From the IMG/VR virus record IMGVR_UViG_3300020430_000015, positions 1 through 62,054 of that record: 62,054 nt of DNA; one strand, 5' to 3'. This DNA is from a virus. Made by a program: the position numbers and the translations under genes. Under the pieces are notes generated by a model. It was not told where the DNA came from. It worked only from the letters and a program-made list of their open reading frames with translations, and did not search any database. Of the stretch, positions 1,142-33,300 are shown piece after piece; within the stretch, counting starts at the first letter, position 1; every line of letters begins with the position of its first letter.

Positions 1142-2866
1142 TTAAGTGCCTGGAGTTGTAGTTCCTGCGTCTGGTGGAGTGCCTGCTCCTGGAGTGCCTG
1201 CACCTTCGTCACCTGGTTCTGTTGCTGGTGCTTCAGGCTCAGCCGCATCTAAGTCTGCTTGGATACCTGCTGTGCTTACACCTGCACTTCTTAACTCTGT
1301 TGCTGAAGTTGTAGGTTTAGCCTGCGTGGTTGCATCGTTTTCTTCTCTCCATAATCTTTCGTTTTCTGCCATTTCTTCTGGAGTTAATCCTAAGAATCTT
1401 GAAAGTGCATAACGTTTGCTTACAAATGGAACCTGAGCAATCTGTGTGTAAGTAGAAATTCTATTGTTATCAACCTCTGCTTGTCTATAAGATGCAAAGT
1501 TCATTGGTGGATTAAACTTAATATCAAACATTGCGATGTCAATATTAACACCTTTTTCTATCAAATACTGTTTGAACTCTTGATTGAATTCATTTGATAC
1601 CATGTTTTGTAATCTTTCACAGTATTTGTTAAATCTTAATTCTTGAATGTATGCTGTGCCTACTCTACCATCATTGTATTGGCTTTGTCCATCATCAGCA
1701 CCTGTTGGCAAATAAGAACTTGGTATACGTAAACCTCTTAATAGTTTGTTTGTAAAGTATTTTAGATCATCAATCTCACCTAAATTAGTACCACCTGGTA
1801 ATGTTTCTACTTTAGAACCTCTACCTTCTGCTGTTTGTGGGAAGAAATAATCTTCATTGATAGATAATGGATTGTAACTTGAATCAATTACGTTTGTACC
1901 ACCACCCGTGCTTGACGGAATACGTCTTTGGTGTATTTCTGTTTTAACTCTTTCTACAAATTGCATTGCCAAGTGCGATGGCATATTACCTACGTCAATG
2001 TAAAACACTCTACGTTCTGGTGCTCTTTGTACTCTGTAAATTATAATTGCATCTTCTAGTAATTCTTTTTGTTTGTAAACTTTAAAAACACTTTCTAACA
2101 GACTGTTTCCAAATGGAAAGTTCAAATCAAGACCTTCACTTAAACTTAAATGGAAAATGTGCTTGGCATCAACAGCAATTTCTCTTTGTCCTGTAGCAAA
2201 TCTTGTGCCTGGTGAGTCTTGATAATTTGCACCAACCATACCTCTTACACCACCTGTTAAATATCCTGAACCACCGCCAGTTACATTACCAGTTGTTTGA
2301 TATGGAGTTGTTGCCACAAGGTTTCTAAAGTTAAAATTAATATCTCTTACAACATATTGTTCAGGAGTTTTTCCTGTGCTTTCATTTACAATAATTTTAG
2401 AAACTTTTGCAGGATCAACATGAAATAATTTCTTTGTTTCTGGATCTCTAATAAAGAATGAATCACCGTACTTGAATACATTACGCATGATTTTAAATAT
2501 TCTCTTGTTTAAATCATTTAATTTGCACCACTGATGCAAATATTGTTCAATAATTTGTACTTCTGTGTTTGTTGCTTTCTGATTGTATGTAAATTTAAAT
2601 GGAGTATTGTTTTGTGTGTTGTTCTGTGTGCAAAATTCTGCAAGAATATCAAGTGCGGCATTGACCTCACTGTCCATATCCATTACATTGTATTGTCCAT
2701 ATCTTTCTATTCTGTTTGGTGCACCACTGTACACATCAGGAAGATAAGATGAATAGTTTGAACGTGCAGGACCAGGCTTGCCTGTTACTCCTCCACCCAT
2801 TGCTGAATATGTGCCATCAGATGCTCCTGCAACTGGTACTTCACTAAAAAATTTTTTCCAACTCAT
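1142..2866 (-). CDS. 20: Portal vertex protein gp20
   Basis: A 574-aa protein that forms the dodecameric portal through which DNA enters and leaves the head. The N-terminus (MSWKKFFSEVP) and following sequence RIERYGQYNVMDMDSEVNAALDILAEFC are typical of T4-like gp20, as are the internal FPFGNSLLE and RAPERRVFYIDVGNMP segments. T4 gp20 is 524 aa; the extra length here is mainly a Thr/Gly/Pro/Ala-rich C-terminal tail (last ~45 residues). Its start overlaps the stop of the upstream tape-measure-like gene (TAATG), so the two are probably translationally coupled. Confidence 0.93.
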   Translation of the reverse strand: MSWKKFFSEVPVAGASDGTYSAMGGGVTGKPGPARSNYSSYLPDVYSGAPNRIERYGQYNVMDMDSEVNAALDILAEFCTQNNTQNNTPFKFTYNQKATNTEVQIIEQYLHQWCKLNDLNKRIFKIMRNVFKYGDSFFIRDPETKKLFHVDPAKVSKIIVNESTGKTPEQYVVRDINFNFRNLVATTPYQTTGNVTGGGSGYLTGGVRGMVGANYQDSPGTRFATGQREIAVDAKHIFHLSLSEGLDLNFPFGNSLLESVFKVYKQKELLEDAIIIYRVQRAPERRVFYIDVGNMPSHLAMQFVERVKTEIHQRRIPSSTGGGTNVIDSSYNPLSINEDYFFPQTAEGRGSKVETLPGGTNLGEIDDLKYFTNKLLRGLRIPSSYLPTGADDGQSQYNDGRVGTAYIQELRFNKYCERLQNMVSNEFNQEFKQYLIEKGVNIDIAMFDIKFNPPMNFASYRQAEVDNNRISTYTQIAQVPFVSKRYALSRFLGLTPEEMAENERLWREENDATTQAKPTTSATELRSAGVSTAGIQADLDAAEPEAPATEPGDEGAGTPGAGTPPDAGTTTPGT

Positions 2867-5052
2867 TATGTGTTATCCGCCACTATTTTTGTATTGTCTG
2901 ATACGTTCTTAGCAAATTTATTGTTCTGATCCATCATCATTAAAACTTGCTCCATTGTAGTATTTAACTTATCCAACTTGTTTCCTGTTTCAGTTGCGGA
3001 TGTTGTAATTGATCCTGACATTCCGGAATTCAGATTGTTCATTGCTTCTCCAAGATTACTTAAACTGTTAGCATACATATCAATCTTACCTTTGTCAAGA
3101 GAATCTAGTGTTGCATTGATACTTTTGGCAAAGTTTTCTGGTCCACCGCCAAAAAGTTTTCCAAAAAAGCCTGTTGCTGATGCACTTGTGGCACTTCCCA
3201 TGTCTACCATTGCACCTGCCAGTGTTTTCAAACCACTTGCTGTGTCTTTTAAACCTTGGCCATCTATGTTGGTGAGCCCTTCTATACCTGTTGTAAATTT
3301 TTGTAGTGCACCACCCATTAGATATGTCGCGCCGGCAATACCTGCACCCAATACTGCAATAGACCCTGCTATGATTGAGGCTCCTAATAAAATTTTAGGA
3401 TTAGCCAATGTGCCTAATGCTCTTCCTAATAGAGAAAATACTTTTCCTGCACCTGCACCTATTCCTTTAGCAAGTCCACCTACGTTTGCTCCTATTCTAG
3501 ATACTGATCCACCACCTCCACCGCCAAGATAAGAACCAGCAGAAGTTAAACCTTTGCTCGCCGCTTGTCCTAACTTAATACTACCAAAGCCTCCTAGTGC
3601 CAATAAAGCGACACCTATTGCAGTTCCGAACTTGCCCATTTCTTCAGTTAAGAAGGATACCATATTTCCAAATAGTTCTAAAGGAACAGAAATTAAATTA
3701 AACAGTCCTGCTAGTGTTGTTGTTGCCGGAGCCAACACCGCCGCGAATGCTGTTCTCAATCTTTGTGTTGCTCTGTCAAATTGAAGTGCGGCTGTTCCTG
3801 CGGCTTCTTGTGCTTTTCTTTGTTCTTCAGTCACTTGTTGTAAATCGCCTAAAGCATTTTTAAATGCAATCGTTTCGAATCTTACATCAAAGAAGTCTAC
3901 GCCGAATTGTTTTAATTGTGCAAATCTTTGTCTTTCTTCTGCACTTAAATTTCCTGTTTCTTGTGCCGCTGTTTGGAACACAGACATCAATTGTTCTACT
4001 GAACCCGACTCACCTCTGCTGACTCTGTCCAGTGCTTCACTAAATCCTTGCAACTGCATAATACCTGCCTCTCTTGCATTTGTAGGAATTCCGCCTGTTG
4101 CAATTAAATTTCTTAATGACTGTCCAAGTTCTTGCGAACCTTTATCTGTTAAAGACAATGCTCTCTGTATCACTGCTTGTTGTTTTTGATCCATACCAGC
4201 CATTTGTAATTTTAATCTAGAGTCAGCGGCATTCTGTTTCATTTCTTGTGCCAACATATCTCTATTTTTTCCTGTTAGCCTTGTTAACAAGTCAAGATTA
4301 GTTAGGTACTCATCCGCACCTGAGGCAAGTTCTCGCGAAGTCATTGTTTGTGTTCTGCCTAATTGAGTTTGGATTTCTAAATATTCACCTGCACCTTCGG
4401 CAATTCTGTCCATTGTAAAACCTAGACCAGATAATTTTTCGAATGTTTCACCTTGTGAAAGTTCTATGAGTGCTTGGGAAAATCTTTGGAATCCTTGACC
4501 AGCAGTTCCACCTAGTAAGGCAAGATTGCCTTGCGCCGCCGCAACTGCTGAGGTAAGTTGCCCCATTGTTAGTCCTGTTATTCCAGATACTCTTCTTAAT
4601 TCACTGATGCTTTGACCTGCTGTTGCACCCACAGTTGAAAGTTGTCTGTAGAAATCTACGTTGTCAGACAACGCATCTAAAAGTGTACTTGCAATGTAAC
4701 CAACAGTTTGTCCTAATACACCCATCTGTGCTGTGGAATATTTTACTGTTGATCCGAGACTTTTTAGTGTACCTGTGGCTAACGTAACACCAACAGCCAT
4801 TGTGTTTTGAATTTTGGCATATTTGTTTAATCCAGTGGTTGTTTCTTCCAAATCTTCATTGAGGTCTTCCAAATAGGATCCCACAGTTTTCATTTCTTTG
4901 GCAGTCTTTCCTGTGGCTTGTGCCACTGACGCCATACCTGTGCTTCCGCCAAGTGCTTTTACCAATGCTTTAAGTGTGGTTTCCTGAGCAACGCCTGAGG
5001 CGGCTATGCCCTTTGCCAATGCATCCAATTGATCTGGTGTTAAATCTGCCAT
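2866..5052 (-). CDS. Tape-measure-like tail protein
   Basis: A 728-aa protein rich in Ala, Gly, Leu and Gln. The N-terminal two thirds are mostly predicted helix with many Gln/Ala/Thr. The region around residues 475-500 (GTAIGVALLALGGFGSIKLG) and another around 555-590 (Ile/Ala/Gly-rich) are hydrophobic enough to be membrane-spanning. This build, long helices plus one or two hydrophobic segments, is typical of tail tape-measure proteins, which fix tail length and pass into the cell membrane during DNA injection. In T4 that job belongs to gp29, to which I see no direct motif. It is first in an operon with gp20. A structural role is likely; the exact function is an inference. Confidence 0.65.
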   Translation of the reverse strand: MADLTPDQLDALAKGIAASGVAQETTLKALVKALGGSTGMASVAQATGKTAKEMKTVGSYLEDLNEDLEETTTGLNKYAKIQNTMAVGVTLATGTLKSLGSTVKYSTAQMGVLGQTVGYIASTLLDALSDNVDFYRQLSTVGATAGQSISELRRVSGITGLTMGQLTSAVAAAQGNLALLGGTAGQGFQRFSQALIELSQGETFEKLSGLGFTMDRIAEGAGEYLEIQTQLGRTQTMTSRELASGADEYLTNLDLLTRLTGKNRDMLAQEMKQNAADSRLKLQMAGMDQKQQAVIQRALSLTDKGSQELGQSLRNLIATGGIPTNAREAGIMQLQGFSEALDRVSRGESGSVEQLMSVFQTAAQETGNLSAEERQRFAQLKQFGVDFFDVRFETIAFKNALGDLQQVTEEQRKAQEAAGTAALQFDRATQRLRTAFAAVLAPATTTLAGLFNLISVPLELFGNMVSFLTEEMGKFGTAIGVALLALGGFGSIKLGQAASKGLTSAGSYLGGGGGGSVSRIGANVGGLAKGIGAGAGKVFSLLGRALGTLANPKILLGASIIAGSIAVLGAGIAGATYLMGGALQKFTTGIEGLTNIDGQGLKDTASGLKTLAGAMVDMGSATSASATGFFGKLFGGGPENFAKSINATLDSLDKGKIDMYANSLSNLGEAMNNLNSGMSGSITTSATETGNKLDKLNTTMEQVLMMMDQNNKFAKNVSDNTKIVADNT

Positions 5053-5162: not shown

Positions 5163-6035
5163 ATGACAGAATTACAACAAGGACAAACACCACAAGCGAA
5201 TCCTTTAAAGAAATATTACAGACAACCCAAGCAGTATATCAAACTGCCTAGCGGTTACAAATTTTATCCTGAAGGAGCAATACAAGTTCCAGAGTCAGGA
5301 GAGATTGCTGTGTACCCTATGACAGCAAAAGACGAATTACTTTTTAAGACACCAGATGCATTATTAAACGGTGAAGCCACTGTAACAGTGATACAGAGTT
5401 GTGTGCCAGCCATAAAGAATGCTTGGGCAATGCCTAGCATAGATGTTGATGCTGTGCTAATAGCAATCAGAATGGCAACATACGGTGAAAAGATGTCTGT
5501 GCCGGTCACAATACCTAACACAAAAATACAGAGAGATTTTGAATTAAATTTACAATCATCTCTGGACAAACTTCTTTCAGCACAATATCAAGACACTGTG
5601 TTTGTGGCAGACATGGAAGTGACTACCAATCCTTTGAATTACAGTCAGTTCACAAAGATGGCAATCAAATCTTTTGAAGAAGCACGTTTACAGGAAACAA
5701 TAAGAAATCAAGACATACCTGAAGAAGACAAACTGAAAAGATTTCAGCAGAGTTTAACAAAATTGACTGCGTTAAATGTTGGCATGGTCACTGAAACTGT
5801 GGTATCTGTAAAAGTTGATGGACAGACTGTAACAGACAAAGCCATGATAGCAGAGTTTATTGAAAATGCTGAAAAAGGATTCTTTCAAACAATACTGGAT
5901 CATTTAGAAAAACAACGAGATGCCTTTGCACTTCCTGAAATGGAAATCACAACCACGGAACAAGAACGCAAAGAAGGTGCTCCAGAATCTTTCAAACTAC
6001 CTATACAATTTGATACCGCAAATTTTTTCGCTTAA
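5163..6035 (+). CDS. 26: gp26-like baseplate hub / tail assembly protein
   Basis: A 290-aa protein resembling the T4 baseplate family that includes gp26 (Pfam T4_baseplate). The N-terminal part has the family pattern: KLPSGYKFYPEGAIQVPESGEIAVYPMTAKDELLF, then LLNGEATVTVIQSCVPAIKN and DVDAVLIAIRMATYGE. T4 gp26 is about 208 aa. A good ribosome site (TTGGAG) precedes the ATG. The ORF ends in FDTANFFA, right on a run of six T, and a -1 frame that is open from 6014 continues with family-like sequence to 6259. The full-length product is therefore probably a frameshift fusion of about 365 aa, with this ORF the short form. It may act as a chaperone for the tape measure encoded divergently next to it. 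Confidence 0.8.
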   Translation: MTELQQGQTPQANPLKKYYRQPKQYIKLPSGYKFYPEGAIQVPESGEIAVYPMTAKDELLFKTPDALLNGEATVTVIQSCVPAIKNAWAMPSIDVDAVLIAIRMATYGEKMSVPVTIPNTKIQRDFELNLQSSLDKLLSAQYQDTVFVADMEVTTNPLNYSQFTKMAIKSFEEARLQETIRNQDIPEEDKLKRFQQSLTKLTALNVGMVTETVVSVKVDGQTVTDKAMIAEFIENAEKGFFQTILDHLEKQRDAFALPEMEITTTEQERKEGAPESFKLPIQFDTANFFA

Positions 6036-6259
6036 AAATCTCCACACTGGATATTTCTGAGATCCTTAAGATGGCCAAGGACATGGAAAATGAAACTAAA
6101 AATTTCAAAGCAGAACTCACAAAAATTGCTTGGTTCATGCGTGGTGGAGTCACAATGGAAGAGATATACATGAGTGCACCAGAAGACAGAGAGATCATGG
6201 CAAAAGTGATCAAAGACAATCTAGACACAGCCAAAAAAACAGGACAACCGTTCTTTTAA
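6014..6259 (+). CDS. C-terminal part of gp26-like protein in the -1 frame
   Basis: This frame is open from 6014, overlaps the end of the 290-aa ORF by 22 bases, and reads FRLKISTLDISEILKMAKDM before its first internal ATG at 6071. It continues with KIAWFMRGGVTMEE and ends KVIKDNLDTAKKTGQPFF, endings like those I recall for T4-like gp26/gp51-type proteins. The ATG at 6071 has no ribosome site, and useful-looking protein sequence lies in front of it, so independent translation is unlikely. Production by -1 ribosomal frameshifting from the upstream ORF fits best. A one-base homopolymer error in the assembled sequence would give the same picture. Confidence 0.7.
   Translation, partial: YRKFFRLKISTLDISEILKMAKDMENETKNFKAELTKIAWFMRGGVTMEEIYMSAPEDREIMAKVIKDNLDTAKKTGQPFF
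6020..6029 (+). other. Putative -1 ribosomal frameshift site (slippery run)
   Basis: The bases AAATTTTTTC are read in frame 0 as ..A AAT TTT TTC. They contain two overlapping X XXY YYZ heptamers, A AAT TTT and T TTT TTC, both allowing re-pairing in the -1 frame. The zero frame stops at 6033-6035. The -1 frame has its own stop at 6011-6013 just upstream and is then open to 6259, so the shift must happen exactly in this window. No clear stimulatory hairpin or upstream Shine-Dalgarno was seen. Confidence 0.6.
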
Positions 6260-7321: not shown

Positions 7322-7750
7322 TTAAGCCTTGTGAGATTTTAATTCTTCTTTTAGGACTTTGGATCCGCCTACGCGAACATTAATAATTCCATTGTAGTAG
7401 TCGTCTGTTTCGAGCACTCTTCTGTCAAACTGTTCCTTGGCTTCCAAATAACTCATTGTGCCTCTGTTTGAGCAAATGTATAATATTTCCCTAGTAAATT
7501 TGTCTTCCCCTTGTGCCTTGACGTCAGCAACCAAATGATCATTGGAACCCCAATAGTCTCTCCAGTCACTTTCGACTTTGCTTCTACGTTTGTTTATTCT
7601 TCCCTTGAGTGGCGGACGTGTCTTCTTGAATTTTGCCAGTTTTTTGCCCACATATTTTTTACCGTTGGTTGTATTGGTAATGAGATACACAAAGCCTTCA
7701 CAGTCTTCTGGCAGTGTGTCTATGGGTTTTCCTTGATATGTCCATGCCAT
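7322..7750 (-). CDS. GIY-YIG family endonuclease
   Basis: A 142-aa protein whose N-terminus has the GIY-YIG nuclease core: GFVYLIT at residues 19-25 (the 'GIY' strand) and KKYVGKK at 31-37 (the 'YIG' strand). A basic stretch (KKTRPPLKGRINKRR) and a Glu in SYLEAKEQF follow; the Glu fits the metal-binding Glu of the fold. Such nucleases in T4-like phages include the free-standing homing enzymes (Seg type) and recombination or repair nucleases. Its place directly after gp46 suggests either a homing gene or a partner of the recombination nuclease. I see no separate DNA-binding repeat domain. Confidence 0.75.
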   Translation of the reverse strand: MAWTYQGKPIDTLPEDCEGFVYLITNTTNGKKYVGKKLAKFKKTRPPLKGRINKRRSKVESDWRDYWGSNDHLVADVKAQGEDKFTREILYICSNRGTMSYLEAKEQFDRRVLETDDYYNGIINVRVGGSKVLKEELKSHKA

Positions 7751-7768: not shown

Positions 7769-7984
7769 CTATTTTTGGTTGTGTGTCTTTTGATTTCTGC
7801 TGTCTTCAAACTCTGTTGTGAGTTCTTTTCTACGTGTTCGGGCCAAAATTCGAATTTCCGCGAGCGCCTTTCTGGCGGCTACTTTGGTAGCGAGGCTCCG
7901 CCTCTTCGCGAACTGCTCGTTTGCCTTGAAGTACGCCATGTATGCTTTGGTCAACTTATCATGTGTATCATCTTGTATGCTCAT
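7769..7984 (-). CDS. Small basic protein overlapping the end of gp46
   Basis: A 71-aa protein beginning MSIQDDTHDKL. This start was chosen because GGAG lies four bases before its ATG; longer in-frame starts (to 8005) lack such a site. Its start overlaps the last codons of gp46 by 17 bases, so translation is coupled. The centre (KVAARKALAEIRILARTRRKEL) is strongly basic and helical, similar in pattern to the small histone H1/Hc1-like proteins of bacteria and phages. DNA binding is plausible; the function is unproven. Confidence 0.7.
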   Translation of the reverse strand: MSIQDDTHDKLTKAYMAYFKANEQFAKRRSLATKVAARKALAEIRILARTRRKELTTEFEDSRNQKTHNQK

Positions 7985-9752
7985 ATGTCTCCACATCATT
8001 TGCATAAGAAGTGAATCCGTTTTCTTTTATCACTTTCAATACATTGTTTACACGCCCTACCAGTTCATCTTTGTGACTGATTAAGAATATGTTTTTGCCT
8101 CTCTCCCTACTCATCTTTTTCAATATTGCTAACGAACTTTCAACACCTGCACTGTCCATACCACTGTCTATCAATTCATCTAGGAACAACAGATTAATAT
8201 TTTGATACAAGTTTTCCCATACATCTCTGAATGCAAAACTCATACCTAGTATTAATCTGTTACGTTCACCTCTGCTCAAGTTGTCAAAATCTAAGTCTTG
8301 ACCGAGTTGAGTGATTTCCACACTCAAATCATTTTTGAATGTGACCAAGTGTGGAAGTCCCAATTGATCCAAGTAGTGTGTTAACCTGTTGTTCAAGAAG
8401 GTCAGGTTTTGATCAATTATCTTTTTCCTTATGAAGGAATCTTTGTTTGTTAACAATTTGTACAAGAATTCTTGATGTTCTTTTAGTTTTTGTAGTGTGT
8501 TTGCTTCATCCCAATTTATTTCTTGTAGTGCTTGTTTTTGTAATTCATCTATTTGATCTATGTATGGATTGGATTCTTTTTGTTTGTTTTTCAATGCTGT
8601 TTCTATGTTGCCCACGTATTGTTTGTGTTCGTATGCTTCTTTTATTGTGTCATAGTATGTGTTTGGTTTTTCTGTGAGATCGCCTAAATCTTTAAGTTCT
8701 TTTTCTGTTTCATCTAATTGTTCCTGCAAATCCATCACATAACTGTTTGCTTCTCCATATTCTTCTTCTAGTTTTCTCTGCATTTCTTCAATTTTTTCAT
8801 TTGGCAAATCCTGACCACAAGCATAACAAGTGGCTTTTTCATTTAATTTGTTCAAATCTTTGTCTAGTTTTTTAGCAGTTTTATCTGCTTGTTCTATTGT
8901 GGCTTCCAAATTACTTTTATCTTTTAGTAATTGTCTTTGCTCTTTGTCCAGTTTATGCCAATCTTCTAATGTCTTGTGTGCATCAAGTTCTTTTTCAACA
9001 TCAAAATTTTCTAATTCTTGCAAATTCTTTTGCAATTTTTCAATATCATCTTTGTTTTGTGTTTCCCAAGCACTGCTTTTATGATGTAAACTTTGAATTG
9101 TTTCTTCAACTTTCTGATTGCTTATTTTAAGACCTTCTAATCTTGCTGTTTCCATAGCAATATCTTCTTTAGTCCTTTTAATTTTTGTTTTCAGTATTTC
9201 TGCTTTTTCAGACAACAACTGTATACCTAGTAATTGTTCTATAATATCTTGTTGTTCAGAATGATGTAAAGCCAAAAACGGTTGAGTGTATGTGTTAAGT
9301 GCGACAAGATGTTTAAACATACGTGGAGTCATACCAATCATTTTGTTCAGGTCTTCTTGTGTTTTACGTGAGTCACCTTGACTGACGTCTGATAATTCTT
9401 GTTCTGTATCATCAATAAAGTATTTCATAACGTTTGGTTTTCTACCACGTTCTACTCTATATTTTTTGCCTTCCTTTTCAAATGTAATTGTGACCAACAT
9501 ACCTTTTCCGTTGGTTTTGTTTACAAGATTATCTCTACGTATTTTTGTAAGTGCTTCACCATATAGTGCATAGGACAGTGCATTTACAATAGTTGTCTTA
9601 CCTGTACCATTACGCGATCCTGCATCATCACCACCCATGTCTAAGTTTTCACCTAGTACAAGTGTTAATAGTTTTTGTTGGAAGTCTATGGCCTGGGTTT
9701 GATTACCCACACTCATAAAATTTTTAACTGTAAGAGTCTTAATTAGTATCAT
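7968..9752 (-). CDS. 46: Recombination endonuclease subunit gp46 (Rad50/SbcC-like)
   Basis: A 594-aa SMC-type ATPase that partners gp47 to process DNA ends for recombination-dependent replication and host DNA breakdown. Seen in order: Walker A GSRNGTGKT at residues 45-53; long coiled coils; the zinc-hook CYAC around residues 309-312; the ABC signature LSRGERNR around 492; and Walker B LLFLDEL around 519. T4 gp46 is 560 aa, so the size is normal. Its ATG overlaps the end of gp47 by 14 bases. Confidence 0.95.
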   Translation of the reverse strand: MILIKTLTVKNFMSVGNQTQAIDFQQKLLTLVLGENLDMGGDDAGSRNGTGKTTIVNALSYALYGEALTKIRRDNLVNKTNGKGMLVTITFEKEGKKYRVERGRKPNVMKYFIDDTEQELSDVSQGDSRKTQEDLNKMIGMTPRMFKHLVALNTYTQPFLALHHSEQQDIIEQLLGIQLLSEKAEILKTKIKRTKEDIAMETARLEGLKISNQKVEETIQSLHHKSSAWETQNKDDIEKLQKNLQELENFDVEKELDAHKTLEDWHKLDKEQRQLLKDKSNLEATIEQADKTAKKLDKDLNKLNEKATCYACGQDLPNEKIEEMQRKLEEEYGEANSYVMDLQEQLDETEKELKDLGDLTEKPNTYYDTIKEAYEHKQYVGNIETALKNKQKESNPYIDQIDELQKQALQEINWDEANTLQKLKEHQEFLYKLLTNKDSFIRKKIIDQNLTFLNNRLTHYLDQLGLPHLVTFKNDLSVEITQLGQDLDFDNLSRGERNRLILGMSFAFRDVWENLYQNINLLFLDELIDSGMDSAGVESSLAILKKMSRERGKNIFLISHKDELVGRVNNVLKVIKENGFTSYANDVETYEHTR

Positions 9753-10758
9753 TATTCAAATCTCTAAATATACCTAACAATACTTGTTTGTCATATGCGT
9801 CTGATTCAATTGATTCAATTTCTTTAGAAACTATCTGATCAACACTTTCAAACTTTGTGATATCTATGTCGGTATTAATTTCTTCGTCTTTTTTGTTAGG
9901 AATTAATGTAATTTCTCTACATCCATATTCTTTCATAAATGTTTCTTTTATAAAACTTGCTTCTTCAAAACTTATATCAATATCTAGTGTAACTCTCAAA
10001 TGCATTTTGCTTTTCATGATGTCTTTAGTTTTATCCAGCAGTGTGCTTAATTTAACATTTCTATATTTAGGACAGTTGCCCCAATTAAAATACACAGGCT
10101 CTTTGCCATGTTCTAGTATCATCATGCCACGTTCATCGTCATCTACATCTGCGTAATTGTGCGGAAACGGATTACCTAAATAATGAATATTATTCTTAAT
10201 TTGTCTTTTGTGGAAATGTCCAGAGAACACATATTCCTGAGCAACAAAGTCACTGCCTTTTAGTTCGCCAGTGTCTGGCATTTCTACCATTGCATTCATA
10301 AAAAAGTTCGGCAGTTCAAAATGCCCGAACATATATTTGCATTTCATCTTGCCCACCTTTTTCCATTCATTACCAACAAGCCAAGGAACCATTACCACAT
10401 CATCTATCTTTGTGATTTCGTTGATCATTGTGATACCTGGAATAAATCTTCCGAATTCAGTTGACTGTATATCTCTGCTGTCTTTGTAATATAAGTCGTG
10501 ATTGCCTGGAAAGAAATAAAATTTATCGAATGCTTTTCCTATTTTTTCTAAACTTCTAATAGAAGCATCCATAGTGGTTATGTTTACACTGTTTCTATTG
10601 TGATGCCAGTCACCACAGAACATTCCAGTTTCACAGCCATGCTGTTTCGCAAGGTCTATGTACCAGTCTATAAATTCTTCGCAATCATCGTTGTGTAACT
10701 TTGAGTTGGATTTCAAGCCAAAGTGTATGTCAGTAAAAACCGCTAATTTCTTGAACAA
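9739..10758 (-). CDS. 47: Recombination endonuclease subunit gp47 (Mre11/SbcD-like)
   Basis: A 339-aa metallophosphoesterase with all five expected motifs: FTDIHFG (residues 8-14), CGDWHHN (~47), PGNHD (~84), FGHFE and SGHFHKRQ (~181). With gp46 it forms the Mre11-Rad50-type nuclease. The start codon is TTG, fixed by an AGGAG site seven bases before it. T4 gp47 has the same length class (339 aa). A TTGACA-17-TATGCT promoter precedes it, so it can be expressed separately from gp55. Confidence 0.95.
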   Translation of the reverse strand: MFKKLAVFTDIHFGLKSNSKLHNDDCEEFIDWYIDLAKQHGCETGMFCGDWHHNRNSVNITTMDASIRSLEKIGKAFDKFYFFPGNHDLYYKDSRDIQSTEFGRFIPGITMINEITKIDDVVMVPWLVGNEWKKVGKMKCKYMFGHFELPNFFMNAMVEMPDTGELKGSDFVAQEYVFSGHFHKRQIKNNIHYLGNPFPHNYADVDDDERGMMILEHGKEPVYFNWGNCPKYRNVKLSTLLDKTKDIMKSKMHLRVTLDIDISFEEASFIKETFMKEYGCREITLIPNKKDEEINTDIDITKFESVDQIVSKEIESIESDAYDKQVLLGIFRDLNNDTN

Positions 10759-20800: not shown

Positions 20801-21356
20801 CCCTGTAAAATACAAAGTGTTATTTGGCGAAAACGCAAGTGCTGATCTACAAGCCACTTTTAAAATAGTTAAAAACAGTGAAGAAGTTACCAACGATGCT
20901 GATATAAAAAGTAGAGTAATTTCTGCAATAAACGAATTTTTTGCTTTAGAAAATTGGAATTTCGGTGATACTTTTTTCTTTACAGAACTATCTGCTTTTG
21001 TCATGTTTGAATTGGCACCAGATATTTCGAACTTTATAATTGTTCCTAAAGCAGGTAATCAAAGTTTTGGAAGTTTGTTTGAAATAAGTTCAGAAAGCAA
21101 TGAAATCTTTATAAGTGGAGCAAAAGTTTCAGACATAGAAATAATAGATGCTGTAACAGCCGCACAAATTAAAGCCACAGGCATAGTGACAACAAGTTCT
21201 ACGTCTACGTCATCTTCATTAAGTGGAACACTTGCTTCTAGTTCGAGTGCATCAGGATCTACAAGTTCAGGTTCTAGTTCAGGTTCCGGCTCAGGATCTA
21301 GTTCAGGTTCCGGTTATAGTTCGGGAGGCTCTAGTGGAGGAGGCAGTGGGTATTAA
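17814..21356 (+). CDS. 6: Baseplate wedge protein gp6
   Basis: An 1,180-aa protein of the gp6/baseplate-J class, the main ring-forming wedge component. The N-terminus is typical: LLLAEDWTRIYQSYKNAEF, DFDTIRRTMIQYIRSNYPEDFNDYIESSEYLALIDLIAFLGQNISFRTDLNARENFIDLA. T4 gp6 is 660 aa; the middle here is larger. The last ~45 residues are almost only Ser and Gly, an uncommon tail. The stop overlaps the start of the giant gene (TAATG). Confidence 0.9.
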   Translation: MASTDRQNRLLLAEDWTRIYQSYKNAEFKSYDFDTIRRTMIQYIRSNYPEDFNDYIESSEYLALIDLIAFLGQNISFRTDLNARENFIDLASRRESVLRLARLISYNVTRNQAGNGLLKITSIATTENIIDSNNLNLANQTVSWNDSGNSNWYEQFIKVLNAGLGENEKFGKPIKSAKIDSIPTAQYRFNTATLDTPVYTFSKSIGGQSLDFEIVSTTFDNESLQEQAPKISEPLSFVHRDDGKGNSSPNTGFFCHFRQGVLDQGDFTITNPSNNEAVSIDARNINNTDVWLYSLNEAGTEDKLWTKVDSVVGNNVIFNSTVKAIKDIYTVLSRAEDRIQLKFADGVFGNLPQGNFRVYYRTSANQNLRMVPDDMQNIAVDIDYISQNNQSETITLTLGLQYTVDNATTSESTENIKTNAPATYYTQGRMVTAEDYNVAPLGTNQEIIKVKAINRTASGISRYFDLIDATGKYSNTNLFGNDGVIYKEENETVDNFDFTTQTDIEAVIINKIEPMLANKNVRNYYIEKFPKILLTDLNATWVQTSKDTNSSTGKFNDSVSAVDYQVGGFTASQLKYIEPGAMIKFEAPEGFHFMANDEHGLMPGLPNHPNAITHKWTAVVSVFNDGATDPGTGEGPIQFNDIIPTGAIATQILPKFSKQLSNDVKTLIIDQTFAYNNFGLRYDVATRSWQVIDENNLNVFGSFSTGKTGDVTNQQLDSSWILRFTNNGATYTMTTRSLRYVFESKREVRFFYDSVDRNFNIVTGKTLQDRISVLSFNTKPDSNDSFNIDTDFSVATEFRTAQGYIDSSKLELTHFDSDQDGIVDNPDAFNDVVAPTVNVTSKYVFQKLIDGQNGTQRYAYVDASEEMIYVRQSSVGAIGDYVDGSIVYIVDTDSFKKINTTTNTTSEETNYIAHLGRDKVKFQYVHTVDGNTRLDPSVTNIIDMYVLTRTYDIDFRQWLAGVTATPPLLPSSDSLYNNFNASLATMKSISDTLIYHPVKYKVLFGENASADLQATFKIVKNSEEVTNDADIKSRVISAINEFFALENWNFGDTFFFTELSAFVMFELAPDISNFIIVPKAGNQSFGSLFEISSESNEIFISGAKVSDIEIIDAVTAAQIKATGIVTTSSTSTSSSLSGTLASSSSASGSTSSGSSSGSGSGSSSGSGYSSGGSSGGGSGY
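21197..21353 (+). repeat. Ser/Gly-coding low-complexity repeat at the gp6 C-terminus
   Basis: The DNA is built of near-repeats such as GGTTCTAGTTCAGGTTCCGG, encoding Ser and Gly blocks with a few Thr and Tyr. It ends at the gp6 stop. Repeats of this type change length easily by slippage, so length may differ between relatives. Confidence 0.75.
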
Positions 21357-24300
21357 TGGCATACGAAAACAAGAAAGAATTTCCAGTACCAGTAGGGTCT
21401 GAATCTAACAGAAGAAAATCTGCGGAGTTTCTTCCTAAATATTTTAGAACTTCAGCCAATCAGAAATTTTTAAACAGCACACTAGATCAGATGATATCCA
21501 GTGGTACACTGGAAAAAATTTCAGCATTTTATGGTAGAAAAAATACACAATCCTACAAAGCAGATGATTATTATGTAGAGGACATAAATGCTGATAGACA
21601 AAATTATCAATTTGAACCCGCAATTACCCAAACAGATGAATTAGGTAATGTAAACTTTTACAAAGATTATATTGATTATATCAATCAGGTAAAAAATTTA
21701 AATGGTTATGCAGATGATCATTCTAATTTAAATGCACAAGAATATTACACATGGTCACCAAAAATTAATTGGGACAAATTTATAAATTATAGAGAATATT
21801 TTTGGTTGCCGTATGGAGCCTCAACAGTTTCAGTAGCAGGTCAACAAAGATCAGTTGTTAGCACATATACAGTAACAAAAAGTGACCAAGGTGACAATTA
21901 TGCGTATCTCTTTACGCCAGATGGTAAAACTGTAAATCCAACATTAAAATTATACAAAGGTCAAACATACAAGTTTGATATATCAGCACAAGGACTTCCG
22001 TTTACAATTAAAACTGCAAGAAGTTCAAGTGATGATTTTATTTACAATGTAGGTGTAAGTCAACAAAAAGTTGAAAAAGGTATTGTAGAATTCACAGTTT
22101 CCGACACAGCACCAGACAAATTGTATTATGGAGCAAACAATGATATAAATGCCTGGGGACTTATAAAAATTTACACAATAGATGAAAATAGTGAATTAGA
22201 TGTTGCAAAAGAAATAATAGGTAAGAAATCATACACACTATCAGACGGCACAGAATTATCTAATGGCATGAAAATTAACTTCAAAGGCACGATTACTCCA
22301 ACAGAATACGCAGAAGGAGAATATTATGTTGAAGGAGTTGGTGATGCAATACAATTAATAAACGTACAAAATTTAGAAGTTGTGAGTTCATACACAGAAA
22401 ATACTCCAGTGCCTTTTGATACAACACAATTTGATACTGTCGGCTTTGGAACAGCGACATCATATGCATTAAACAAAGATTATGTTGTAATTAACAAAGC
22501 ATCGCCAGACAGAAATCCTTGGAGTAGACACAACAGATGGATTCACAAATCAGTAATTGAAGCCAGTGCAAAAGCAAATGGTCAGATTGCTAATGTTGAT
22601 CAATCATTAAGAGCAAGAAGACCTATAATAGAATTTGAAGCAGGGTTAAAGTTATTCAATTTTGGAACATCAAGCAAAGGAAATATAAATTTAATTGATA
22701 CTGTAACCACAGATGCAATGTCAGATGTTGAAGGGGCAGTTGGATATCACATTGATGGCGTAGAACTTACAAATGGTATGAAAGTGATGTTCACAGCAGA
22801 CACAGATCCACTTGTAAAAAATAAAATTTATGAAGTTAAATTTTTAGATTTTACTGAAAATAATATTACAACAAGACAAATTAGTTTAGTTGAAGTGACA
22901 GATGCAGACAGTTTAGAAAATGAAACGGTTTTAGTCACCCAAGGTACAAAAAACCAAGGCAAAATTTACTGGTACAACGGAACAAGTTGGCAACTTACTC
23001 AAGAAAAAACTAAAGTAAACCAAGCGCCAATGTTTGAACTTTTTGATGACAAAGGGATTAGTTACACAGATGCAACAAATTACAGCAACTCAAGTTTCCG
23101 AGGTAACAAAGTTTTTAGTTTCAAAGAAGGTCAAGGTGCTAACGACCCGGAACTAGGTTTTCCAATAAATTATCTTAATGTAAACAATATTGGTGATATT
23201 ACATTTGATTTTAATTTGGTCAATGACAGTTTTGTGTACGGTGACGACACACAAACAACAGTGAATACTGACACAGCATTTTTAAAAAAGTTTACTGATA
23301 GAACAACAAACAGTCTACAAAACGGTTGGGAAAAAGCAGATACTGAAAGTTATCAAAGAGTAGAAAGATTATACAATGTAACTGCAACACAAACAAACGA
23401 CTTTGCTGTTGATGTGTATGATAAAAGCGGAGATTTAAATGATTTAACTGTAAAAGTTTTTGTTAATAATCAAATTAAAAAAGAATTAACTGATTACACA
23501 ATTAATAGAATAAATTCTGTTGCTTTCATTAATTTTAATCAATCATTAACAGATGGTGATGTTGTTGTACTTAAAACATCTAGTGCGACAATAAAAAATA
23601 AAAACGGACATTATGAATTTCCTAACAATTTAGAAAGTAATACACTTAACAATAACATAAGTTCTTTTACTCTTGGACAAGTAACCGACCATGTAAAAAC
23701 AATTACAAATGAACTTTCAGGAATTGTAGGCGTTACTCCAGGTGCAAGTAATTTAAGAGATTTTCCAAATGCAACAAAATTTGGTAGGAAATTTTTACAA
23801 CATTCAGGACCACTCAGTCTTGCAATGTACACCTTACTAAGAAAAGATATTCATATAGTAAATTCTATTTCTTTCAGTCAAGAAGCATACTTAAGATTCA
23901 AGAGAGCATTTATAGAAAAAGCAACAAACTTAGGTTTCGATGGCAATGTAGATGTTGCAGTAGATAAAGTTTTAGAAGAAATTAATAAAAATTACACAGA
24001 GTCATCTGCATTTTTCCAAACAGATATGTTAGGTATTGGAGCATTTAAATCAACAACACATAAAGTTTTAGATACAAATAGTCAATTCTATGCAATATCA
24101 ACAAACTTTGATTTAAACAGTTTATCAATTAAAGCAATAAACGTGTATCACAATGGTGAACAACTAATACATGAACAAGATTATGTTTTCACAAATGGAT
24201 TTGTTAATGTTACTAAAACACTAACACTTGATGATGAAATTGTAATTAGAGAATTTGAAACATCAAATGGATCCTACATTCCAGCAACTCCAACTAAATT

Positions 24301-27300
24301 AGGTTTATATCCAAAATATATTCCACAAAAATATAGCGATACTACCTTAGTAAATCCTACAGATGTGTTACAAGGACACGACGGCAGTATTATAAAAGCA
24401 TATGGTGATTACAGAGATGATCTAATTTTAGAATTAGAAAAAAGAATATACAACAACATTAAGACAACCTACAATAGTGATTTGTTAGACTACAATGCTT
24501 TTATTCCGAAAGCAAATAGAACAAACTTGTTTAGTCATGATTCAATAAACACTGTATTGTTACAAAATTACAACGAATGGGCAACATTTATTGGAAATGA
24601 AGATTATACAGCAAACACATATCAGCAAGATTCTAATAGTTTAACTTGGAATTATTCTAATGCTATTTCACCAACAGGTGAAAAATTATTAGGACACTGG
24701 AGAGGTATATACAAAAATTTATTAGGTACTGATAGACCAAATATTACTCCATGGGAAATTATAGGCTTTACAGAAAAACCAAAATGGTGGGAAACTACTT
24801 ATGGTCCTGCTCCGTACACAAAAGAAAATCTAGTCTTATGGAAAGACATGGAGGCAGGAATAGTAAGGGAACCAAATAAAAAAATTGTTATACTAGACAA
24901 ATATAAAATATCTAACTTAACTTCTTATATTCCTGTAACAAGCACAGGAACAATCCGAAGTCCATTTGATAGTGGGTATGCTAGAGAAGTAGTTTTAAAC
25001 GCAACTAAATCAAAGTATTCATTTGGCGATCACAGTCCTGTTGAAAATGCATGGAGAAGAAGTTCTGATTATCCTTTTGCAATATTAAAAGCATTTTTAT
25101 TACACCAACCAGCAAAAGTAATTGGTATAGGTTGGGATACAAGTAGAGTTAAACGAAATGATGCAGGTCAAATTGTTTATTCAACTGGTTTAAGATTACA
25201 ACCTTCGGCGTTAGTATTTCCAAGTTCTATTTCAGAAAAAACAAAAATTTTAACTGCTGGACTGGTAAACTACATATATGATTTTGTTGAAGTTAATCTA
25301 ATCAATAGTTATGCAGATTATAAAGCAAAAATAAAAAACATTCAAGCACAAATAGGATTTAAAATAAGAGGCTTTAGTAATAAGGATAAATTTAAATTAG
25401 TTTTAGACAGTAAGTCTCCTACAAACACCGCAAATATTTTTGTACCTGAAGAAAATTATAAATTAATTTATAATACAAGTTCGGCTGTTGAACTCATAAC
25501 TTACAGTGCTTTAATTATTGAAAAAACAACATCTGGTTATCTTATTAAAGGTTACGATAAGAATAATCCTGTTATAAATTATTTTGCTCCAATTCCAATT
25601 ACTGCCGACCCAACAATCAATGTTGGTGGAGTAAGTGCATCTTTTGTAAATTGGGCAACAAATAAAAGATACGATGTCGGACAATATGTTAAATTTTCAA
25701 ACGAATTTTACGCAGTAGAAACACAACACGTTTCAGAAAGCACTTTCGATTTGTCTAAATTTGTAAAACTTGTTGAATTACCTATCGAAGGTGGAACAGT
25801 TGCACAATTAAGAAAGAAATTCAGCACAGATATTTCAACAGTTCCATATGGCACAACCTATGAAACTATTCAAGAAATAGTTGATATTATTTTAGGGTAC
25901 GGGGAATATCTTAAATCTAAAGGATTTAAATTTAATGATTTCGAAAGAAATTTAGAAAAGGTTTCTAATTGGCAATTATCGGTACGTGAATTTATGTACT
26001 GGACCACACAAAATTGGGACGCTGGTAGTGTGATTAGTTTGAGTCCATCTGCAGAAAGACTAGTGTTAGAAACGCCAAACGCAACTACTGATAATGTTTT
26101 AGATAATTTTTATTCCTATGGCGTGTTAAAAGAAGACGGAAATAATTTAGACAAAAATTTTGTGCGTGTTACAAGGGATAGAAATGTATTTGAATTACTA
26201 TTAAAAGAAACAATTAATGGAATATATTTCTGTAAAATTCCTGTTGTGCAAAAAGAAAATGTTTGTATTATAGATAACACAACAACATTTAATGATTTAA
26301 TTTTTGATCCTGCAAGTGGTTACAAACAAGATAGAATAAAAGTATTAGGATACCTGACTGAGTGGGACGGAAGTGGGGTGTCTCCTGGCTTTATATTTGA
26401 TGAAGCGAAAATACAAGAATGGGCACCATTCACAAAATATGCTATGAGTGATGTAGTAAAACACAAACAATTTTTTTACACTGCAAATAAAAAATTAAAA
26501 GCATCAGAAAAATTTAATGAAGAAGATTGGCGCAGATTAGATAATCGACCACAACCTTCTTTGTATGCAAACTTTGATTATAAGGCAAATCAATTTGGTG
26601 ATTTTTATGATTTAGATACAGATAATTTTGACACTGATCAACAGCGAATGGCTCAACACTTAATTGGTTATCAACCAAGAGAGTACTTAAGAAATATTAT
26701 AAATGATGATGTTGCTCAATACAAATTTTATCAAGGATACATTAGAGAAAAAGGAACATCAAATGCGTTGAGTAAATTATTTGACGCTCTAGCAAGTGCA
26801 GACAAAGAAAGTGTTGATTTTTATGAAGAATGGGGTATACGTAAAGGACAATATGGTGCATCGGATACTTTTGATGAAATAGAATATGTGCTAGATGAGT
26901 CAAAATTAAGATTGAATCCACAACCAATTGAATTGACAGACTTGAACACAGGAGCAGAAACTGATTTAGTATATAGAATACAATCAGGTGAGGTTTATCT
27001 AAAACCAGACAATTACAATCATAATCCGTTTCCTATAAAATATGACAAAAATACATACATCAAAACTGCAGGTCCAGTAAATCCTATTGATATATCTGTT
27101 ACAGTTGGAAGTTATGATGATTTATTAACAAGCACCACTCTGACAAACCTAAAAGACGGCCAATATGTGTGGGTAGGAAACTACAATAATTCTTGGAATG
27201 TGTTTAGATATTCTAACACAAATCAAACAATTACAAGTGTTGTTGCAGGTTCAAATGGAATTACAGTCACGACTTTAAACAATGCTGAAATGACAGTGGG

Positions 27301-30300
27301 AGAAATTTTTGTAGTAAATGCAAATGGATCAGATTATGTGCTAAAATGTAAATCAGTATCTTTAAATTCAATTGTGTGTGAACCTAAAACAGGATTCCAA
27401 TCTATCACCACAGCAGTTGGATTTATTAGAAGACTTGTTACAAGTCGTGTGTCTGACATTGCAGAAATAAATCAACGAATTGTAGACCAAGGATTAAAGG
27501 ATAATGAAAAATTCTGGGTAGACCAAAGTAATGATGGTAAATGGAAAATTGTAAACAATAAATTTGTCTTCAAACAGCATGACACAGTAAGTTCAACGAC
27601 AGACTCAGGTGATGTAAGTTTTGGTCAAGTTTTATCAGCAAACAAAAATAACACAATACTATTAGTCGGACAACCAGATGAAAATGATGGACAGATCTAT
27701 GTATTCAGTAGAGGAACTGAAAGTGCTACACTAAGATTGATACAAATAATTCAATCTCCAACAGTTGATCCTATCTATCAACAAACGGATTTATTTGGTC
27801 CTAACAGTAAATTTGGTAAGGCAATGGAAATTTCACCAGAGGGTGATTATATATTAGTTGGTGCTCCAGATGCCAGCAATCTAAAAACAGAATACAAAGG
27901 ACAATTTGTTGATACACAGAATTATGCAACAGGAAATATTGTACAATACAAAAAACAACTATGGAGAGCAACAAATCAAATAATTGGTGCAGATCCATCA
28001 GTGGACTTTTCAACTTTTGATGCCGCTGGTTTCTACAATGAAGCAACTAATTCAGCAATCACAAACCTTTTAATAGGTGATGCTGTACACCCAGGCACAA
28101 CAACGAATCACCTTTTAGTTAGAGCAAGTGCTGATCAATACAACGGCACAAAAATTGGTGACAAATTGTATATGAAATATTTAGGATTCACATCTGATTA
28201 CAATCAAGACAGAAACAATTACATGAAGGATCCGAAAGCACCGTTCGGAGAGGATATTAATCAATCAACACTACTAGGTGAACTTTTCTCTTTCAATGCT
28301 GTTCCGATAGTAGAAAAAATTGATGAAATATTGAAAGTGGATTTGACTCTGACTGATCCTGTAGTCGGCAATGTGCTTACAACAGACACAGCACAAGGGA
28401 CAGTGGTATATGTAAACAAAGTTGGAACAAAAACTCTTATCTATTTGAAAGATGTGCAAGGTATATTTTCTAATTCAGACTCAATAAACTTTGGCAATTT
28501 AGAAATAGGTGCTTATGATAGAGTAATATCAGAAGATTACAACTACTTAGGTGGTTGGTGGAGAGTTGATTTTCCAACAGCAGTGTCTACAGACTTGGGT
28601 GCAGATACATCTAATCATCTAGTAATATACGATATCATAAGACAAAATATAACAAGAATTGAAAACCATTTTTTCAATTCAGTGGAATATCCATGGATGC
28701 CTATCTCACCAATGAGTCCAGTTTACGGTGCAGAATTTGGAATGGTATCTTATGCTCAGAGTTATTACATTGATCAAAGCACAAACAGTTGGCAGGCAAA
28801 CGGGTCGCCAGTTAGTGTATTGAGCAACAAATATTTTATTAGAACAGACGTGCAGACAAGTTATCATGCAATGGGCAAACAAGCAGGTGACCAAATAAAT
28901 GTTTGGTTTAACACTGTATCTAACAACAGATACACTTTCCCAGGATTGAATATTTCTAATGCTGACACAAATGGATTGAAAACAATTAGTGATGTTTGGG
29001 AAGGCTATGTTGATGTTGATTCTCAACCGGACAACAATGCAAACTTCTATGTTCCAACGGTTGGTGACATTGTAAGATGTGATACTACCTACACACAAAC
29101 AGGAGGCTTTGGCGGAGAAGGAACAGTGGCGGCAATACAATACACAGGATTGCAAAAATATAGATTATGGATTAAAGACTTATCAGGTAATGGTATGCCA
29201 TTTGTGCAAGGTTCCAATGCAGGCTTCAATGGCACAATTACAGTGGTAGGCACACCAAACAGATTGTTAGGTAACATTGAACAAACAGCATTCACTGACA
29301 GTAATTTGCCTGGAACCATTGGTAATTTATTAGTGTTTGAACACACAGCACCTATCAATTTCTCAGGCACAATTACAGAATACTTTGGTAGAGATATTGA
29401 ATATTGGACTTGGGATGAACTGACATTGGACGGCATCAATGTCTCTGCAAACACACCAAGCAGTGTCAACAGAGATTGGAAACAAGTTTACAATATTCCA
29501 ATAGGAGAAGGTGTACAGAGTGCGTTTACAAATCAAGGATGTTTCCTTGTGTACGAAAAAGAAACGAACGGACAGTTTTCATTTGCCGGAGGTTACAGCA
29601 TACCTGATTCTGCAACAGGATTAAGATTTGGATCAAGAATTAAAATTAGAACTGTGGGTAATGAAACAGTGGCTTATGTGGGAGCAGAAGGTGATAACAC
29701 AACAAATTTACCAGGCAAAATTTATTTTATAGAAAACAGTGCTACTAAAAATTGGTGGTTAGGTATTGATCCTCAATATAGAGGTTTGTTTGATGCCACA
29801 GTATCATATCAGACAGGTGAACTAGTGGTGTATAACAATCAATTATACAAAGCAACAACCAACATGGTCCCGCAACCTTTTTATGATTACAATTGGCAAT
29901 TACAAAATACTCATACAGATTTCCTAGGTTACATACCAAATGATTCAGGAATTGAATTAGAAAATGACAGCACTTTAGATCAAAATAACATGGTGCAGTT
30001 TGGAAATAGATTTGATATTGATACAAATGGTAATAATATTATTGCAAATGTATTGTACTCAAATGACAGTCAAAAAATAATTGTTTACAGATTGCATGAC
30101 AATCATTACTCATACAAACAAACAATTACTGCACCAGATGATTCAGGACCAACAATTAATTTTGGTGCCGATATCAGTATTAGTGGTGATGGTCAATTAA
30201 TTGCTATTGGGTCTCCTTTAAAAGACTTTACAGATATAGATATGGGTGCTGTTTATGTTTACAAGAAAGCAACAGATGATTCAGGCTTATATGCACTAAC

Positions 30301-33300
30301 ACAAACTTTAACAAGTCCTGCTAAAGAAGTAAGTGAAAACTTTGGATATGCTTTATCATTTAGTGGAGACATACTTGCTGTTACAAGTCTAAAAGGCGAT
30401 ATGACAATTGACACAACTTTTGATGGTAACATAACAAGTTTCGATAATGAAATGACGTCATTCACAAAAATTGTACAAGACACAGGCACAATTCACATTT
30501 ACGAAAAATTTGATAACACATTATTATATTCAGAAAAATTCACCTATGCAGATACAAGCATACAGCAATTTGGTTCTAATTTATTGGTTAATGTTAACCA
30601 CGTTTATGTTGGAATGCCTAATTTACAATTACTAAATGAAGAAGTAGGAACAACTATTGATTTCCGCAGATCTCAAGATGCGAACAACTGGACTAGTGTA
30701 CATGAAACAATTGGCGGCATTGAACAACCTGATCTAACAAAAATTAAAAGTGTATTTTTATACAACAAAAAAACAAAAAAAGTTTTAGCAAATCTTGATT
30801 ATATTGATCCTATTTTTGGAAAAATACCAGGACCAGCAGAAGAAGAAATTTTCTACAAAACAAAATATGATCCAGCCTACTACAATCAATCAGGATCTAC
30901 AAGGCAAGATGATTTAAATCATTGGGATCACAGTCAAGTAGGAAGATTATGGTGGGACATAAGCAAAGCACAATATTACTATCCATATCAAAGCAATATA
31001 ATTTTCAACAATTCTTATTGGAACAAATTATTCCCAGGCGCAACAATTGATATACATGAATGGACACAATCAAAATATACGCCTATACAATGGAATACTT
31101 TGAGTGCAAGTCCAGAAGGATTATCTTTGGGAATCACAGGTACGGTGTCAAACACTAACAACTTTGTATTAGCAAAACAATATGACAAAGTTGCGGGTGT
31201 GTTTACAAATGTTTATTTTTATTGGGTAAAAGGTAAAACATCTGTACCGCAAATTGAAGGTAGAACTTTATCTGCGAATGATGTGGCGAAATTAATTAAA
31301 GATCCAAGATCACAGGGTTACAAATATGTTACAATATTCGGTTCAAATAAATTTGCACTTGTAAATTGTGGAGGTTTAGTAAATGATAGAGATGCTGTAA
31401 TAAACTTCAGATTGTTTAATACAATTACAAATAATGATATTCATGAAGAATATGCAATAGTGACTGAAAATTTAGCGTCTAGTAAAATTCCAACAGATAT
31501 TGAAACTGTTTGGTTTAACAGTTTGATTGGTTATGATGAACTAGAAAATCAAGTGCCGGATCCTGCTTTGAGTGAAAAATTAAAATATGGTACATTGATG
31601 CAACCAAGACAAAGTTGGTTTAAAAACAAGCAAGATGCTTTAAAACAAGCAATTGAAAGAATTAATAGTACATTAATTAAAAATTTAATTGTAGATGAAG
31701 TAGATTTATCTAATCTAATTAAATCTGATCCAGCACCTTTGACTGCAACAGGCTTATATGATGTGACCGTAGATACAGAAAAAGATCTACAATTTATTGG
31801 TGTTGGTACAGTAAAGACAGCAACATTAATTCCAACAATTGAAGACGGAAAAATTAAATCTGTTTTTGTTTCTGACGCAGGTAAAGGATATAAATTTAAA
31901 CCAACAGTCACAATTAACACAACAACAGGATCTGGTGCAGTAATAGAATTATTAATCGATATTAATGGGTCAGTATCAAGTGCTGTGGTACGTGAGCAAG
32001 GAACAAATTATAAATCTAATGATACAATTACTGTCCGTGATTTCAGTGCATTAGTAAATGCTGACAGCACAGTCACAGGAAAATGGGCAGTATACACTTA
32101 CACCACAGAGGGTTGGACTCGTGCAAGAATACAAAGTTACAATGTTGGATTATATTGGGACTATGCTGATTGGTATGACGTAGGTTACAGTGAATTAACT
32201 GCTATAGATAAAAAAGTTTCACAGACTTATGAATTAGACGCTGTAGAGTGCGCCATTGGAGACATAGTAAAAATTGAAACTGTAGGTACAGGTGGCTGGT
32301 TACTATTAGAAAAAATAGATAATCAAGAGGATGTTGATTACACAGTAAATTACAAAACTGTAGGTAGACAAAACGGAACAATTCAATTTAACACAAAATT
32401 ATATGATTATGCTAATCAAAATATAGGTTTTGATTCTAACAGTTTTGATGTGCAACTCTATGATAGACAGCCTATTGAAGAAACAAGAATAATTTTACAA
32501 ACTGTAAGAGACAGTATATTTGTTGAAGATTTAAAATTAGAATACAATAAATTATTCTTTGCAAGTGTGAGGTATGCACTATCAGAAGATACTTTAAACG
32601 ATTGGGTCTTTAAAACAAGTTTTGTTACAGCACAACACAATGTAGGTGATTTAAAACAAAAAGTTACATTTAAAAATGATAATCTATCTAACTATGAAGA
32701 TTATATTAGAGAAATTAAACCATACAAATCTAAAATAAGAGAATATGTAAGTTCTTATGATAAAATTGAACCTACTAATACATCCTTAACTGATTTTGAT
32801 TTACCGCCAAGATATGTTAATGGTGTAATCACTCCTTCAAATATTAGAGTAGAAAATAGTGCTTTAGTTAATGCAGACAACATAAACACATTTCCAAATA
32901 AACATTGGAAAGACAACATAGGTTTTACAGTTAAGTCTATTAATATAAAAGAAGGCGGAACACTTTATAAAAACGCACCTACAATAGAAATAGTAGGAGG
33001 CGGTGGCTCTGGAGCAACAGCAACAGCATACATTAAAAATGGAAAAATTAACAGAATAAATGTTACAAATGGTGGATCTGGATATGTTGGTAATCCAACA
33101 GTAAACGTGTTAGGATCAACTACTGGTACAGTTGCTGAAGCCTATGCAGTCTTAGGCGATAGTCTAATTAGATCAACTCACCTAGGCGTCAAATTTGATA
33201 GAACAACTGGAGAACTATTACTTGCCAATTTAACACGAACTGAAACTTTCTCAGGCAACGCAAGTCAATTAAAATTCAAATTGGAATGGCCGATGGATTT

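Follow-up and report, generated by a model that had tools for sequence, protein, structure and literature searches.

The stretch of DNA investigated here, referred to as the window, encompasses the 62,054 bases of the IMG/VR virus record IMGVR_UViG_3300020430_000015. Direct reading of the zero frame at positions 5163-6035 identifies an open reading frame that extends from an ATG to a TAA and encodes a protein of 290 residues, termed the short form, and the -1 frame was found to be free of stops between positions 6014 and 6259. The gene ends with the zero-frame codons GCA AAT TTT TTC GCT TAA, which contain two overlapping heptamers, A AAT TTT and T TTT TTC. A backward slip by one base at the latter would join 289 residues of the short form to 76 residues encoded in the -1 frame, resulting in a long form of 365 residues (Table 1). 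A first-pass annotation of the window had placed the zero-frame stop at 6035 and the -1 opening at 6014-6259, with lengths of 290 residues for the short form and about 365 for the fusion. All of these numbers hold, and both heptamers that it had named are in phase with the zero frame. With 12 occurrences of TTTTTTC on the plus strand of the window, the bare heptamer alone would constitute weak evidence, and the case for a slip site is carried by the position and phase of the heptamer, as conserved in the sequences of its relatives.

Table 1. Features of the chaperone locus in the window and of corresponding regions in related loci (L, locus handle).
Feature	Sequence	Position	Strand	Remarks
Short form (TAC-N), 290 aa, T4 gp26-like	window	5163..6035	+	PF12322 1.9e-10; phrog_150 8.7e-15
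Overlapping heptamer A AAT TTT	window	6020-6026	+	in phase
Slip site T TTT TTC	window	6023..6029	+	in phase; T TTT TTC/T in 210/212 related loci
-1 extension, 76 codons plus TAA; C-terminal part of 365-aa long form (TAC-NC)	window	6029..6259	+	
Possible stimulatory hairpin CTTAA..ATCTC / GAGAT..TTAAG	window	6031..6070	+	-7.5 kcal/mol, z -0.87
Zero-frame stop TAA	window	6033..6035	+	one sense codon past slip site
Tape-measure-like protein, 728 aa, divergent neighbour	window	2866..5052	-	via homologue in L015
Extension annotated apart or omitted	related loci	L040 2328-2537; L036 2370-2549; L034 2361-2591; L043 after 2355; L037 after 2352		
-1 tail without T TTT TTC, Cygsa01 and Ackermannviridae-like	related loci	L051 1760-1990; L220 1400-1620; L224 1390-1640; L219 1460-1700		

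The short form matches the Pfam family PF12322 (T4_baseplate), which contains gp26 and gp51 of phage T4, with a score of 41.2 bits at a cut-off of 24.5 (E 1.9e-10) and the PHROGs family phrog_150 (baseplate hub) with 8.7e-15, in line with its initial description as a gp26-like protein, and it is the only PF12322 gene in the record. When compared to both collections, the fused protein of 365 residues does not score higher than before fusion. The neighbouring gene on the opposite strand encodes a protein of 728 residues, which itself has no direct match to a family. Its homologue in one of the related loci (L015, 26% identity over 642 residues), which is located beside the corresponding chaperone gene, matches the tail length tape measure family phrog_58 (3.5e-5), which supports the proposed proximity of the gene to the tape measure.

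When viral contigs and phage records were searched with proteins and profiles, 212 related loci were obtained in which the end of the zero frame could be read. An in-frame slip site (T TTT TTC in 208 loci, T TTT TTT in two) followed by a -1 extension is present in 210 of these loci; the exceptions are Cygsa01 and T4, the latter matching best with its unsplit gp51. In 187 of the 210 loci, a single sense codon separates the slip site from the zero-frame stop. Isolated phages carrying the site include Phosso, Atu_ph07, BF, PA5oct, GAP32, 121Q, Munch, Vibrio 2.275, RaK2, SCTP-2, XacN1 and CM1, and it is also found in S-RIM8, Aeromonas 65.2, Nitratidesulfovibrio SRB7757, PhiW-14, Melnitz-3, Citrobacter Ci1, SH-Ab 15599 and Astolliot. 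As hundreds of related phages share the site, we consider it to be real. The first-pass annotation had regarded a base-calling error in the run of six T as the main alternative to a frameshift. In the alignment with related phages, the offset between frames is kept at the same run in 210 of 212 loci, and the run comprises six T in 208 of the 210 loci and seven in the remaining two, where its phase keeps the site, which excludes such an error. Although the run is a homopolymer, its length and the offset are identical in 208 loci originating from many independent assemblies and isolates, and a broken gene would not be compatible with the purifying selection acting on the extension (see below), so that there is virtually no chance that the arrangement reflects an error in sequencing or assembly or a decayed gene. 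As to the two heptamers, T TTT TTC is general in the relatives, whereas AAATTTT is present in 95 of the 210 loci only and A AAT TTT was thus rejected as universal heptamer. Judged by this conservation, T TTT TTC and not A AAT TTT is the operative heptamer.

The constraint on the site extends to the choice of codons. Loci with a complete extension group into 79 lineages at 70% protein identity and into 16 at 50%. In the 79 lineages, the residue preceding the Phe-Phe pair is either N, S, H, T, D, A, Y or R and its codon always ends in T, a constancy with a log10 P of -22 under a null that is based on the codon usage of each lineage and that ignores kinship. Under the same type of null, which again ignores kinship, the use of TTT for the first Phe in 79 of 79 lineages has a log10 P of -13 and that of TTC for the second in 77 of 79 a log10 P of -51. 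On average, these genes use TTT for 71% of their Phe residues, more often than TTC. TTTTTC is found at 3 of the 40 other Phe-Phe pairs of the same genes, compared to 77 of 79 lineages at the slip site, and only 2 of 1713 windows of 60 codons inside these genes are open in the -1 frame. By these counts, the slip site and the open -1 frame are far beyond chance expectation. The alignment of distant relatives also displays zinc-ribbon-like CxxC motifs at about residues 110-120 and 260-285 of the short form, the second of which is located just before the slip site; the cysteines are lost in the clade of the window.

The extension is open in all site-bearing relatives and covers 57-80 codons, with a usual length of 60-76. 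Substitutions in 40 independent pairs amount to 267, 126 and 788 at the first, second and third position of its -1-frame codons, and its codon differences comprise 641 synonymous and 324 non-synonymous changes. Since substitutions concentrate on the third codon position, we conclude that the extension is translated in the -1 frame, and it bears the substitution pattern of a region that is under purifying selection and evolves as protein. Translation in this frame might alternatively proceed from a separate gene, either with its own start or by termination and reinitiation near the zero-frame stop, in which case no fusion would be formed. Public records agree with such a separation insofar as they list the extension as a distinct hypothetical protein or 'baseplate hub assembly catalyst', or omit it, and none of the examined records fuses it to the upstream CDS (Table 1). 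However, the first 25 codons of the extension contain no ATG in 35 of the 79 lineages and neither ATG, GTG nor TTG in 20, and a ribosome-binding site is found at 2 of 44 first extension ATGs compared to 48 of 79 zero-frame starts. Independent initiation is thus unlikely to serve as a general route. A separate gene would also leave the invariant T TTT TTC unexplained, and it conflicts with gp51 of T4, which combines N part and tail in one protein. It finds backing in Pseudomonas Cygsa01 and the Ackermannviridae-like dinky, VAP7 and D493, where the tail is kept in the -1 frame and the heptamer is absent. In three of these four exceptions (Cygsa01, Vibrio VAP7 and Vibrio D493), the stop is part of a TAATG sequence, whose ATG is in the -1 frame, and a stop-start overlap may constitute a third solution in Cygsa01 and the Ackermannviridae-like exceptions. 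As explanation of the locus, we consider a separate gene to be highly improbable and favour a ribosomal frameshift.

Evidence for structure in the RNA was obtained for the region downstream of the site. The 60 nucleotides after the site show a mean z-score of -1.58 (sem 0.17) relative to shuffles, compared to -0.27 in an upstream control, with the onset of the signal directly after the slip site. Many marine relatives contain a hairpin with the sequence AGGATC...GATCCT about 5 nucleotides past the heptamer, for which z-scores of -4.30 and -4.25 were obtained in two loci (L015 and L164). In its arms, AGG encodes 39 of 43 Arg residues at a background of about 6%, and ATC encodes 31 of 42 and 32 of 53 Ile residues at a background of 22% (p 1e-12 and 1.6e-9), a skew in codon choice that, from these frequencies, is not required by the protein. 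The two arms co-occur (p 8e-4). Covariation beyond the conservation of the arms is small, with fixed-pair counts of 0.79 observed and 0.77 in arm-swap shuffles, and the case for the hairpin thus rests on energy and codon choice. Since clades differ, RNAalifold does not yield a single consensus structure. We have found no published description of this GGATC/GATCC hairpin of the marine and jumbo group. The hairpin of the window itself is no better than shuffles (z -0.87), and a stimulator is therefore unsupported for this virus. An upstream Shine-Dalgarno-like stimulator was rejected as candidate, as it is found in only 13 of the 79 lineages.

These features also bear on slippage of the RNA polymerase, which would add or drop bases at the T run so that part of the mRNA would encode the fusion directly. 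Such a mechanism would take advantage of the homopolymer and lead to an identical fusion, but a run of six T is short by the standards of transcriptional slippage. Moreover, neither the C following six T, which is kept in 208 of 210 loci, nor the hairpin, which in many relatives is located at a ribosome-like spacing, is a requirement of a polymerase, and we assign a very small probability to this process.

The predicted fold of the short form was also compared to known structures. An AlphaFold model of the short form (pLDDT 85) does not retrieve a significant match in Foldseek, and fold searches with the whole model were swamped by a helical hairpin formed by residues 154-238, with HK97 gp13 at rank 29. 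For that reason, the N-terminal domain was modelled alone (pLDDT 84). Among 607 realigned chains, only YqbN (3klu; Z 6.0, 88 residues, rmsd 5.8) and HK97 gp13 (2ob9; Z 5.8, 85 residues, rmsd 5.2) reach a Z of at least 2, both values being modest, and no unrelated chain does. Foldseek E-values of the N-terminal domain are not significant, and a sequence search of solved structures returned nothing credible, with no detectable similarity to solved chaperones. PMC9603447 lists both YqbN and HK97 gp13 among the tail assembly chaperones of phages.

A second connection leads to T4, whose gp26 and gp51 both match PF12322 over the full length of the family (9e-64 and 4e-52) and are thus paralogues. 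The sequence of gp26 terminates with ...EFFELL, which coincides with the end point of the short form, whereas gp51 continues with an extra C-terminal tail. The family phrog_634 matches the C-terminus of gp51 and also the -1 frame after the site in S-RIM8 (7e-32), Aeromonas 65.2 (5e-13) and SRB7757 (1.6e-12). Tails of the window type align in register with the gp51 tail, with a weak hhalign P of about 0.01 to T4, and the match to cyanophage tails is also weak (hhalign P 0.003). T4 contains two divergent paralogous PF12322 genes, whereas the window virus carries one gene with a -1 site, and the other 16 records with a match contain one such gene each. In a phylogenetic tree with long branches, gp26 and gp51 of T4 appear as sisters (97/95) inside a group of mostly frameshifting members. 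Tree and gene counts fit a duplication that would have replaced frameshifting in the T4 line.

Cyanophage gp26 (S-RIM8 and IMG/VR relatives) contains T TTT TTC and the -1 frame at the position found in the window, while its N part is shorter (236 residues) and its tail, which matches phrog_634 with 7e-32, belongs to another subfamily lacking WYMRGG. The jumbo phages 121Q, RaK2, GAP32, BF, PA5oct, Atu_ph07, Phosso, SCTP-2 and XacN1 all share the in-phase run and the -1 extension. They contain a single PF12322 gene, except for SCTP-2 where none is detected by the Pfam profile, and their proteins are about 22-35% identical to that of the window. In XacN1 and CM1, T TTT TTT takes the place of T TTT TTC. 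In the annotation of the jumbo phages, the two parts appear as unrelated CDS or the extension is absent.

The tail assembly chaperones of T4-like phages have reportedly been identified by Vladimirov, Gautam and Davidson in 2022 (Virology 566:9-15). According to a summary in PMC10885494 (citing Vladimirov 2022), some T4-like phages contain one short gene and one long fusion gene and do not employ frameshifting, and poly-T -1 signals are summarized as known in TAC-N genes of T4-like phages in PMC12846349 (citing Vladimirov 2022). Going by these summaries, this kind of system is already known, probably in some T4-like phages. The TAC of Vandenendeviridae/Andersonviridae (phage Adele) contains a group-conserved GTTTTT -1 site near the 3' end of TAC-N (PMC12846349), which by its description is a similar T-run site in other families and with another motif. 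To this, the present analysis adds the wide distribution of the site among marine and jumbo phages, the evidence from codon choice, the hairpin and the loci that deviate from the rule. We slightly lean towards a scenario where U UUU UU(C/U) would be ancestral for two-form T4-like PF12322 chaperones and was replaced by duplication in T4 and often by TAATG in the Ackermannviridae-like phages, with the GGATC/GATCC hairpin boosting the marine and jumbo group.

The site, its conservation at the level of nucleotides, the protein-coding character of the extension and the relation of the gene to T4 gp26/gp51 are established by sequence comparison, and this comparative evidence supports the initial proposal of a programmed -1 frameshift in the gp26-like gene. 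The suggested likeness to the layout of lambda G/GT gains support from the modest match of the predicted fold and the relationship to T4 gp26/gp51. It is thus very probable that -1 programmed ribosomal frameshifting gives rise to a short and a long tail assembly chaperone in this marine T4-like virus, as in lambda G/GT. We infer a ribosomal shift, a short-to-long ratio and roles of the two forms as follows. Most ribosomes would halt at the TAA at position 6033 and release the short chaperone of 290 residues, while at T TTT TTC (6023-6029) a minority would slip back by a single base, with re-pairing of the same tRNA-Phe to UUU UUU. The shifted ribosomes would then read CGC TTA AAA... and produce the long chaperone of 365 residues including the C-terminal extension. 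By analogy to lambda G/GT, the shared part would coat the tape measure protein or self-associate along it, and the C-terminal extension would recruit tube subunits. In lambda G/GT and HK97 gp13, where the system consists of a short form and a rare -1 long form, the gene is located directly upstream of the tape measure on the same strand, whereas in the window the two genes are divergent.

With this assignment, the annotation of tail genes in marine and jumbo phage genomes is corrected, and the T4 hub factors gp26 and gp51, historically considered as baseplate hub proteins, are connected with the tail chaperones that lambda-like phages produce in a short and a long form. Phages would thus arrive at one protein pair through frameshifting, gene duplication and perhaps an overlap of stop and start codons, and the importance of a fixed short-to-long ratio becomes testable in laboratory phages.

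Other regions of the window contain further features of potential interest. A 142-residue ORF at positions 7322-7750 on the minus strand, which by eye resembles GIY-YIG endonucleases, adjoins gp46/gp47-like recombination genes (7968-10758). A single, very large ORF of 4896 residues at positions 21356-36046 on the plus strand, probably encoding a giant virion protein, is located directly 3' of an ORF of 1180 residues and is followed by tail-fibre-like ORFs. Finally, radical-SAM-like CxxxCxxC motifs, recognized by eye only, are contained in at least six ORFs that cluster on both strands between positions 47437 and 57282, where they are interspersed with glycosyltransferase-like ORFs.
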